The notes beneath the pieces are model-generated. The model saw only the letters and a program-made list of their open reading frames with translations, was not told where the DNA came from and did no database searches. From Planctomycetales bacterium (GTDB lineage: Bacteria; Planctomycetota; Phycisphaerae; SM23-33): a stretch of DNA of 43,105 nt. Location of the stretch: the NCBI GenBank assembly GCA_030612725.1, contig JAUWNJ010000027.1, positions 1 to 43,105 of the forward strand, read 5' to 3'. Both the position numbers and the translations under genes were made by a program. Of the stretch, positions 4,108 to 6,600 are shown in pieces (positions within the stretch are counted from its first letter, which is position 1; each line of letters starts with the position of its first letter).

Positions 4108-4620
4108 TTAAGAGTTTTCCTTTTCGTTTCGTTCTTTGGCGCGTTGTTCTCCGCGTTGGACTGCGATGATTCCGGTTCGGGCGAGTTCGCGGATACCGTA
4201 AGGTTTAACCATATCGACGAATGCTTCCAGTTTTGCTTCGGGTCCGGAAAGTTCCACCGTCAGGGATTGTCTGGCGACGTCAACGATTCGCCCGCGAAAG
4301 AGGTTTACCAGTTCGACGACTTCGGCGCGTTTCTCCGGCGGCGCTGAAACGCGGACAAGCATCAGGTCTCGCTCAACGTAGTCGATCTCCTTGAAATCGC
4401 GGACGCGGACGATCGTGATAATTTTTTCCAACTGCTTGCGGATCTGTTCGAGCACGTGTTCGTTGCCGACGACTACGACGGTCATCCGGCTCAATTCCGG
4501 GTCTTCGGTCCGCCCGACGACGAGCGAGTCGATATTGAACCCGCGTGCGGCGATCATACCGGCAACATGCGCCAGGACGCCGGAAGTATTCTGAACCAAT
4601 GCTGTTATGACGTGTTTCAT
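4108..4620 (-). CDS. ilvH: Acetolactate synthase, small (regulatory) subunit
   Basis: A 170-residue protein, the usual length for IlvH. It opens with the ACT-domain signature (HVITALVQNTSGVLAHVAGMI), followed by GFNIDSLVVGRTEDPELSRMTVV and a C-terminal IlvH domain ending in GIRELARTGIIAV. It binds the catalytic subunit IlvB and gives it valine feedback sensitivity in the first shared step of valine, leucine and isoleucine synthesis. The start codon lies one base after the ilvB stop codon, so the two are translationally coupled in one minus-strand operon. Confidence 0.96.
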   Translation of the reverse strand: MKHVITALVQNTSGVLAHVAGMIAARGFNIDSLVVGRTEDPELSRMTVVVVGNEHVLEQIRKQLEKIITIVRVRDFKEIDYVERDLMLVRVSAPPEKRAEVVELVNLFRGRIVDVARQSLTVELSGPEAKLEAFVDMVKPYGIRELARTGIIAVQRGEQRAKERNEKENS

Positions 4621-4621
4621 T

Positions 4622-6337
4622 TTACACCAACCTTCCCATATCCATTTCGTGCAGGCTTTTACCGGCAGCGACCATGGGGAAAACGTTCTCTTCCGGTTCG
4701 ACGCTCGCAGCCAGGACGACTGGACCGTCGTGTTTGAGCATTTCGTTTATTGCGTCGTCCAGGTCACCCGGATCGGTAGCGCGAATCCCCTTTGCACCGA
4801 AGGCCTCTGCGATCAGCGATAAATCCGGACAGGGGTGCTCGGTAGCGGAATATCGCCGTTCGTAGAACATCTCCTGCCATTGGCGGACCATTCCGAGGTA
4901 ACAGTTGTCCAGTACGACGACCTTGACGGGCTGATTGTAATGCACTGCCGTTACCAACTCGCCCATCGTCATTGAGAACGAGCCGTCGCCGTCGATGTCA
5001 ATGACGGTTTTACCGGGGTTTCCGAATTGTGCCCCGATTGCCGCGGGCAGTCCGAAGCCCATCGTTCCGAGTCCGCCGGAGGTTAGAAATTGCCTCGGTT
5101 TTCGCCAGCCATAGAACTGCGCCGCCCACATCTGGTGCTGTCCGACGCCGGTAGTGATAATCGCGTCGTGGTCGGTGAGTCGCCCGACGGATTCGATGAC
5201 CTGCTGCGGCTTGATTTTGGGTCCTGTGTCGTAGTGGAGCGGATAGGCTTTTTTCCATTTGGCGATTTGCCCCAGCCAGTCTTTGCGCCCTTTCGATTTT
5301 ATCATCGGGAGCATTTTTTCGAGAATATCTTTTGCGTCTCCGACGACGGGGATATCGGCTTTGACGTTTTTGCTGATAGATGTCGGGTCGATATCGATGT
5401 GGATGATTTTCGCGTGCGAGGCGAAGGTTTCCACCTTTCCCGTAACGCGGTCGTCGAATCGCGCGCCGACGGCGATGAGGCAGTCGCACTCCTGGATTGC
5501 GTAGTTGGCGGCGGCGGTTCCGTGCATTCCCAGCATCTGAAGCGCCAAGGGGTCGGACTCGTCGAAGGCCCCGAGCGCCATAAGCGTCGTGGTAACGGGG
5601 ATATTTCCGCGATGCGCCACCTTGTTGAGGATATCTGACGCTTCGGAGATAATCACGCCGCCCCCGACGTACAAGACGGGTTGTTTCGAGGCGTTGATTG
5701 CTTCTGCTGCGGCTTTGACTTGGCGAATGTGCCCGGTGAGCATCGGTTTGTATCCCGGTAGATTGGTTTCCAGGTCCGGTTCTTCTGACAGTATGTTGCT
5801 TGTAGCGTCCTTGGCGATGTCGATTAGCACCGGTCCGGGACGCCCCGTCCGTGCGATGTAAAACGCTTCGCGGACCGCACGTCCAATGTCCTCCGCCCGC
5901 TTTATCAGCATGTTGTGCTTGGTTACCGGGCGAGTGATTCCGGTGGTGTCCGCCTCCTGAAAGGCGTCGTTTCCGATAAGGGCGCTGGTAACCTGTCCCG
6001 TGATAGCGACCATCGGGACCGAGTCCATGTAGGCTGTTGCCAGACCCGTTACCAGGTTGGTCGCGCCGGGGCCGGAGGTGGCGATGCAGACGCCGACTTT
6101 ACCGGTCGAGCGGGCGTACCCGTCGGCCATGTGTGCAGCCCCCTGCTCATGGCGGGTCAGGACGAACTTAATCGGTGTTTCGTACAGCGAATCGAATATC
6201 GGAAGCAGCGCCCCGCCGGGAACGCCGAATAATACCTCAACACCTTCTGCCAAAAGCATCTTGTGGAACAGGTCGGCCCCGGTCATTCCGGCGTAACCTT
6301 TTGCCTGCTTCGATGTGGTTTTCGTGGACTTCGACAT
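4622..6337 (-). CDS. ilvB: Acetolactate synthase, large (catalytic) subunit
   Basis: A 571-residue thiamine-diphosphate enzyme that condenses two pyruvates to acetolactate (or pyruvate and 2-ketobutyrate to acetohydroxybutyrate). Domain order is canonical: N-terminal ThDP-PYR domain with GVPGGALLPIFDSLY and the catalytic Glu64 in TRHEQGAAHMADGYAR, central FAD-binding domain (about 200-340), and C-terminal ThDP-PP domain with the metal-binding IDGDGSFSM...N motif near 446-478. The N-terminal ~17 residues are Lys/Thr/Ser-rich and less conserved. Weak AGG lies upstream of ATG. A leader of about 230 nt with its own promoter, short ORF and hairpin precedes it; see the separate entries for the attenuation model. 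Confidence 0.97.
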   Translation of the reverse strand: MSKSTKTTSKQAKGYAGMTGADLFHKMLLAEGVEVLFGVPGGALLPIFDSLYETPIKFVLTRHEQGAAHMADGYARSTGKVGVCIATSGPGATNLVTGLATAYMDSVPMVAITGQVTSALIGNDAFQEADTTGITRPVTKHNMLIKRAEDIGRAVREAFYIARTGRPGPVLIDIAKDATSNILSEEPDLETNLPGYKPMLTGHIRQVKAAAEAINASKQPVLYVGGGVIISEASDILNKVAHRGNIPVTTTLMALGAFDESDPLALQMLGMHGTAAANYAIQECDCLIAVGARFDDRVTGKVETFASHAKIIHIDIDPTSISKNVKADIPVVGDAKDILEKMLPMIKSKGRKDWLGQIAKWKKAYPLHYDTGPKIKPQQVIESVGRLTDHDAIITTGVGQHQMWAAQFYGWRKPRQFLTSGGLGTMGFGLPAAIGAQFGNPGKTVIDIDGDGSFSMTMGELVTAVHYNQPVKVVVLDNCYLGMVRQWQEMFYERRYSATEHPCPDLSLIAEAFGAKGIRATDPGDLDDAINEMLKHDGPVVLAASVEPEENVFPMVAAGKSLHEMDMGRLV

Positions 6338-6423
6338 CTTCTTTTTACCTGCCTTTCGTCATTATCTCATCGTCCTGACACAGCGCATTGCTTTACCTCA
6401 AGGGAAAAACGGTAGGGGGGGTT

Positions 6424-6462
6424 GGTCGCTTCAAAGTCCGCCGCCGGACTTTCTAAGCGACC
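6424..6462 (-). promoter_or_regulatory. Two-part stable hairpin in the ilvB leader (candidate attenuator)
   Basis: On the minus strand GGTCGCTT (6462-6455) pairs perfectly with AAGCGACC (6431-6424), and the inner arm AAAGTCCG (6452-6445) pairs with CGGACTTT (6440-6433) around a 4-nt loop, giving 16 bp in all. The upstream arm contains the last codons and stop codon of the 35-codon leader ORF. A second GCGACC copy inside that ORF (6545-6540) can pair with the same upstream arm, giving a competing structure. A GTTTTT tract follows at about 6410-6405, 13 nt past the stem, so it is not a textbook intrinsic terminator. Confidence 0.55.
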
Positions 6463-6560
6463 TTGCGTACAATGACCAGCAGCGCAACAACAAAACCCGT
6501 CTCAAGAACGACGGCTGAAGCGGATAAAGATCTCAAGTTGGTCGCTGTGATTATTTTCAT
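6453..6560 (-). CDS. Candidate ilv leader peptide, 35 aa, rich in Val/Leu/Ile
   Basis: A 35-codon ATG...TAG ORF lies between the ilvB promoter and ilvB. Fifteen of 35 residues are branched-chain, concentrated near the end (VVALLVIVRKV) just before the stop, which sits in the 5' arm of a stable hairpin. This is the architecture of ribosome-mediated attenuators such as the enterobacterial ivbL/ilvL leaders: stalling at Val/Leu/Ile codons would alter hairpin formation and raise ilvBH expression. The ATG is only a few bases from the predicted transcription start and lacks a Shine-Dalgarno sequence, so it would be leaderless or nearly so. A chance hydrophobic ORF remains possible. Confidence 0.55.
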   Translation of the reverse strand: MKIITATNLRSLSASAVVLETGFVVALLVIVRKVA

Positions 6561-6571
6561 CGCTGTATTAT

Positions 6572-6600
6572 ATTCTATAGGCATTCTCCCGAACCGTCAA
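6572..6600 (-). promoter_or_regulatory. Sigma70-type promoter of the ilvBH operon
   Basis: On the minus strand TTGACG (6600-6595), a 17-nt spacer, then TAGAAT (6577-6572). A perfect TATAAT also overlaps at 6572-6567. Transcription would start near 6565-6560, right at the leader ORF start. Confidence 0.6.

Follow-up and report, generated by a model that had tools for sequence, protein, structure and literature searches.

A leader region between ispE and ilvB, on the minus strand of a 43,105-nt contig of a Planctomycetales bacterium (JAUWNJ010000027.1, the whole of which is called the window here), had been read in a first-pass annotation as a candidate ribosome-mediated attenuator of the enterobacterial ivbL/ilvL type. 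The locus raises the question of whether such a leader is a conserved element or a chance arrangement and, if it is conserved, which state of its RNA would allow transcription to continue into ilvB.

Layout of the leader region

The features of the region, all on the minus strand, are as follows.
7488-6604: ispE, the upstream neighbour of the leader region
6572-6600: promoter predicted from sequence; TTGACG (6600-6595), 17-nt spacer, TAGAAT (6577-6572)
6453-6560: leader ORF, 35 codons plus stop TAG (6455-6453); ORF end conserved in 27 genomes
6540-6545: GCGACC copy within the leader ORF that could base-pair with the stem's 5' arm
6468-6476: putative sensor codons GTC ATT GTA (Val-Ile-Val); GTA at 6470-6468, 8 nt 5' of the stem
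6424-6462: stem-loop GGTCGCTT..AAGTCCG/CGGACTT..AAGCGACC, 16 bp, overlapping the ORF end
6402-6423: C-rich, G-poor tract including T5 (6409-6405); a termination factor may load here
4622-6337: ilvB, acetolactate synthase large subunit, 571 aa, the proposed controlled gene
4108-4620: ilvN/ilvH, which we take from its sequence and general knowledge to encode the acetolactate synthase small subunit, 170 aa; co-transcribed, judging by position

The promoter, the 35-codon ORF and the 16-bp hairpin overlapping its stop were all present as first annotated. The ORF encodes MKIITATNLRSLSASAVVLETGFVVALLVIVRKVA, with 15 Ile, Leu or Val residues among its 35 codons, and its ATG at 6560 lies 11 nt past the -10 box, giving a predicted 5' UTR of about 5 nt. 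The hairpin (6462-6424, 8+8 bp) has a dG of -24.9 kcal/mol and, compared with shuffled versions of the same 39 nt, a z-score of -6.4; the full 228-nt leader shows only moderate structure (z -2.0). The T-tract that had been placed 13 nt past the stem is present as the T5 run, at a distance of 14 nt. An Rfam scan returned no match for the window leader and, for ten relatives, no match to any ilv or leader family. A further stretch ahead of ilvB, GTAAAGCAATGCGCT..GACGATGAGATAATGACGAAAGGCAGG (within 6310-6400, minus strand), is kept in the closest relatives (L002-L004, L163).

Conservation among related genomes

An ilvB-type match was found in 53 of 60 related genomes. Leader counterparts upstream of ilvB were located in 26 genomes of one family and in one genome of a sister family, 27 in all, and the same ORF end and stem, identified by eye and by script, stood upstream of ilvB in 25 of the 53 ilvB-bearing genomes. 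A covariance model was trained on 24 loci with G003, G009 and G020 (L025) held out; it recovered all three, each upstream of ilvB (51.6, 54.5 and 30.3 bits, respectively), and for most of the family's genomes that carry ilvB its top match was the ilvB locus. Since 26 other genomes share the ORF end, the stem and the promoter spacing, and the model recovers the loci left out of it, the leader is not a product of chance, and its existence and conservation are confirmed. Within the DNA examined, the intact ilvB loci of G006, G022 and G026, all three from this family, lack it.

In a sample of 392 genomes drawn evenly across the phylum, the matches besides the window's own were weak, with E-values no better than 9e-5. 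Ten weak loci were tested as further ilvB leaders, and none had ilvB within the fetched ~3 kb. Named relatives of the window IlvB include Sedimentisphaerales and Phycisphaeraceae, which suggests a planctomycete of the class Phycisphaerae as the source of the genome. One contig labelled as an Actinomycetes bacterium (JAUXAG010000015.1, L036) encodes an IlvB 63% identical to that of the window, and its public name is probably wrong.

A short ORF lies between promoter and structural gene at all 27 loci. The TTGAC -35 box is found in every leader and a TAnnnT -10 box in 26, and a promoter score of at least 9 of 12 was reached at 26 loci as against 2.9% of shuffles. Start codons, picked by their nearness to the promoter, lie 4-18 nt downstream of the -10 box in the 27 leaders, and the 5' UTRs predicted from promoter position span 0-12 nt; the leader transcript is thus predicted to be leaderless or nearly so, in agreement with what had been suggested for the window.

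Alignment of the upstream regions of relatives, which the first-pass annotation had recommended, revealed a conserved short ORF rich in Val, Leu and Ile codons and stem arms carrying compensatory changes. Among the last ten codons these residues make up 63% in frame (37% Val), compared with 23% and 15% in the other two frames, and they account for 22% of the N-terminal part of the ORF. Gaps among the leaders of close relatives are all multiples of three. Codon -2, counted from the usual stop position, is Val at all 27 loci (GTA at 26) and codon -4 is Val at 26, while codon -3 varies in its amino acid (V, I, S or A) and has T as third base at 26. GTA supplies 39 of the 101 Val codons in the leader tails, as against 43 of 1496 (2.9%) in the ilvB genes themselves. 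A consensus for RNA-polymerase pausing at the GUA codon was weighed as well but discarded, being absent on inspection from some loci.

The position of the codon -2 GTA is exactly 8 nt 5' of the stem at all 27 loci. The stop codon is placed variably, at -2 relative to the stem in 17 loci and inside it, at +7 to +22, in the other ten. The window leader belongs to the second group, its usual TAG reading AAG and its ORF running three codons longer; G003, from the same genus, retains the usual TAG.

A stem of 10-16 bp is formed at all 27 loci, with two-sided compensatory changes such as GGCUGC/GCAGCC and GGGGC/GCCCC. In an alignment made independently of structure, 87% of stem cells pair, as against 25-68% in slid controls, and the covariation score of the stem exceeds all 500 shuffles. 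From the end of the stem to ilvB the distance is 83-366 nt. At three loci (L017, L021 and L025) a truncated IlvB N-terminal copy occupies the same open frame between leader and ilvB, and here the leader lies 350-366 nt from the gene. The tract past the stem has a C-minus-G excess of +5.3 per 30 nt over the 27 loci, compared with -0.5 in controls (p 2e-11); this bias spans only about 25 nt, and the tract pairs with downstream sequence less than shuffles do (z +0.8).

The annotation had doubted that the switch would be a classical intrinsic terminator, and this doubt was justified. No U-run follows the stem at most loci, the T5 about 14 nt past it being a feature of the window and its nearest relatives. 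A search for intrinsic terminators before ilvB gave no candidate in 11 of the 27 leaders and only weak, long or irregular ones in the others; a strong U-tract terminator like those of the leuA leaders described below was seen at none of the 27 loci.

The second GCGACC copy, which had been proposed to compete for the hairpin, does exist at 6545-6540 and could pair in the five nearest relatives, with z between about -1.5 and -2.7. The pairing is not family-wide, the mean z for ORF-to-5'-arm pairing being -0.4, and the copy was rejected as a competitor. No other conserved competitor of the stem was found, pairing of the ORF with the 3' arm reaching a mean z of only -0.6, and the 3' arm, the 5' arm, the Val segment and the C-rich tract showed no pairing above shuffles with downstream sequence or the ilvB start. 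With no conserved structure competing with the stem, the sequence does not reveal the OFF state.

Polarity of the proposed switch

Judged from these comparisons, the region is very probably a ribosome-mediated switch that responds to branched-chain amino acids ahead of ilvBN. The ivbL/ilvL-type reading of the annotation holds for a ribosome-mediated leader sensing these amino acids, for which the comparative support is strong; from that type the leader departs in the U-tract intrinsic terminator, which it lacks in any strong form.

A guide to polarity is offered by leucine-rich leaders upstream of leuA in the same family (e.g. MIRQTNSLGLLLLTGLLLR, or MMVRQRDNLSLLLLLGLLLRPLGAG in the genome of the window). 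Here a single nt separates the stop from GGATCGCGG, which precedes CCCCGCGATCC and, after it, GGTCGCGGGGC with a T-run. Strong U-tract terminators are present in ten leuA leaders, in which the stop-to-stem distance is fixed. As read from sequence, the leuA leaders have a competing antiterminator and terminator, the stop-adjacent stem being the predicted antiterminator. The ilvB leaders share with them the order of regulatory codons, Arg codon, stop and stem; the leuA leaders differ in having a third segment, the U-tract terminator, the fixed stop-to-stem distance and a 5' UTR of ~13 nt with an SD-like GAAGG.

By this analogy the ilvB stem is fairly likely to be the structure formed on starvation (ON), corresponding to the leuA antiterminator, rather than the terminator. 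What is sensed would be valine tRNA in its charged form, leucine and isoleucine codons serving as additional sensors. During shortage a ribosome would stall at GUA, or at an earlier Val, Leu or Ile codon, leaving the stem just outside the mRNA entry, where it would fold and transcription would proceed. Messenger RNA enters the ribosome about 12 nt from the first P-site nucleotide, and with GUA in the A site the base of the stem lies 12 nt from that nucleotide (counted as 1), so that the stem could just fold. Any step beyond GUA would open it. It is this geometry, together with the fixed distance of the Val codon and the variable position of the stop, that leads us to read the stem as the ON structure.

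When amino acids are ample, the ribosome would reach the stop codon and unfold the stem, and the open stem would expose its 3' arm and the C-rich, G-poor tract to factor-dependent termination (OFF). Rho is the most likely such factor, since no leuA-like terminator was found and the C-rich, G-poor stretch is conserved; a Rho-dependent OFF step is nevertheless put forward tentatively. In favour of an attenuator with an ON stem, the leuA leaders share its order of parts and its stop-adjacent antiterminator stem, and two Rho-like proteins are encoded in the window's genome; against it, no conserved competitor of the stem was found, a C-rich bias of ~25 nt is short for a Rho site, and three intact ilvB loci have no leader in the DNA examined. 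Taken as a whole, a ribosome-mediated attenuator of ilvBN with stem-ON polarity is the reading towards which we lean. A broader proposal, that attenuation in Planctomycetes of this class is gated by the ribosome and dispenses with an intrinsic terminator, combining a near-leaderless ORF, a rare GUA codon, a stem at the mRNA entry and admission of Rho upon loss of the stem, is speculative and rather doubtful.

The main rival reverses the polarity. The stem would then be a terminator or pause hairpin lacking a U-tract, perhaps assisted by a Nus factor; it would fold and stop transcription once a finishing ribosome had left, and a ribosome stalled at the Val codons would hinder it. The strong stem at all loci and the stop at its base in 17 of 27 suit such a hairpin, but in the ten leaders whose stop lies inside the stem, up to +22, a terminating ribosome would cover it, and by geometry a ribosome stalled at GUA barely touches it. 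Actinobacterial ilvB leader ORFs that overlap terminator hairpins have been described (PMC1262725), yet the U-tract missing from most ilvB loci is present in the leuA leaders of the same genomes. We regard this polarity as unlikely, though it deserves serious consideration.

It is improbable that the switch is post-transcriptional, with stem and ribosome position setting the stability or translation of ilvB mRNA. Against such control, 83-366 nt separate the end of the stem from ilvB, and pairing with the ilvB start is no stronger than in shuffles for either the stem or the C-rich tract. The lack of an intrinsic terminator comparable with leuA would fit it, as would the leaderless cysteine uORFs of mycobacteria that attenuate operon expression according to the title of Canestrari 2020, as cited in PMC13236596. 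Hardly credible is an untranslated ORF, the conserved block being instead a structured RNA, a protein-binding site or a DNA element: nucleotide constraint does exceed amino-acid constraint at codons -3 (NNT in 26/27) and -2 (GTA), but the Val/Leu/Ile enrichment is confined to the reading frame, gaps among close relatives fall in multiples of three, the start codon is close to the promoter, and Leu-rich and Trp-containing leaders precede leuA and trpE, respectively.

Known systems and further leaders

The closest known system is the ilvB leaders of Actinobacteria, namely C. glutamicum IlvL with the ilvB-II motif, S. lividans IlvL and M. tuberculosis ilvB1 (PMC11857589, PMC8079986, PMC10272879, PMC13236596). 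These likewise have a short ORF rich in branched-chain residues before ilvB and a hairpin at its end; a leaderless or near-leaderless start is shared by C. glutamicum, S. lividans and, by prediction, the planctomycete leader, and a conserved GUA control codon by C. glutamicum and the planctomycetes. Whereas the actinobacterial leaders have intrinsic terminators and competing hairpins, the planctomycete leader has no U-tract terminator and no conserved competitor, and it is further set apart by its longer peptide, by the fixed distance of GUA from the stem and by its phylum. The annotation had known of no planctomycete precedent, and we too found no such case in planctomycetes among open-licence papers; the design itself is however not unprecedented, given the leaderless attenuator peptides before ilvB in Actinobacteria (PMC8079986, PMC11857589).

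With the enterobacterial ivbL/ilvL leaders the planctomycete leader shares a run of Val codons in a peptide encoded before ilvB. It differs from the leaders of E. coli, where the start depends on an SD sequence and a U-tract terminator is accompanied by alternative stems. Rho-dependent leader-peptide switches include tnaC, and mgtL and corL of enterobacteria, where, as we infer for ilvB, the position of the ribosome on the leader ORF decides the access of Rho; their signals differ, and at ilvB it is only the missing U-tract and the C-rich tract that point to Rho.

If the broader proposal of ribosome-gated attenuation in this class is correct, these leaders would be the first set of amino-acid attenuators described in Planctomycetota. 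Ribosome-mediated transcription attenuation requires ribosomes close behind RNA polymerase, and the leaders would thus also be evidence of tight transcription-translation coupling in the phylum. Conserved amino-acid leaders in another planctomycete group make coupling directly testable there. In theory, regulatory codons are chosen for their sensitivity to tRNA charging (PMC1183508), and the fixed GUA codon would provide a natural case for that theory.

Other operons of the window's genome were reached through gene searches. Phe-run leaders before pheA and His-run leaders before hisG were sought and nothing convincing was found. The two Rho-like proteins of this genome score 118.5 bits (G000:C43, L034) and 55.7 bits (G000:C60, L035) to Rho_RNA_bind. 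The leuA leaders (L182, L185-L189 and L191-L193, L189 being from the window's genome, G000:C16) are apparently undescribed attenuators. Genes of the trpE type are preceded by leaders with a W-V-W motif, in the window's genome MLHCTRHWVWSRPGCNARYANGRVASAY; among these ORFs (L217, L218, L221, L232 and L233, L232 being G000:C31) some start 9 nt past the -10 box, and a conserved GGCG..CGCC hairpin, without a T-run, lies downstream. A second family of the class has Val-rich ilvB leaders of unrelated sequence in the same order of Val codon, one codon, stop and stem (L177, L179 and L180). In several of the leaders of this family (L173, L177, L179 and L180) TGA-GCGG..CCCGC follows immediately on the Val codons, and the start lies about 10 nt past a TATACT box.
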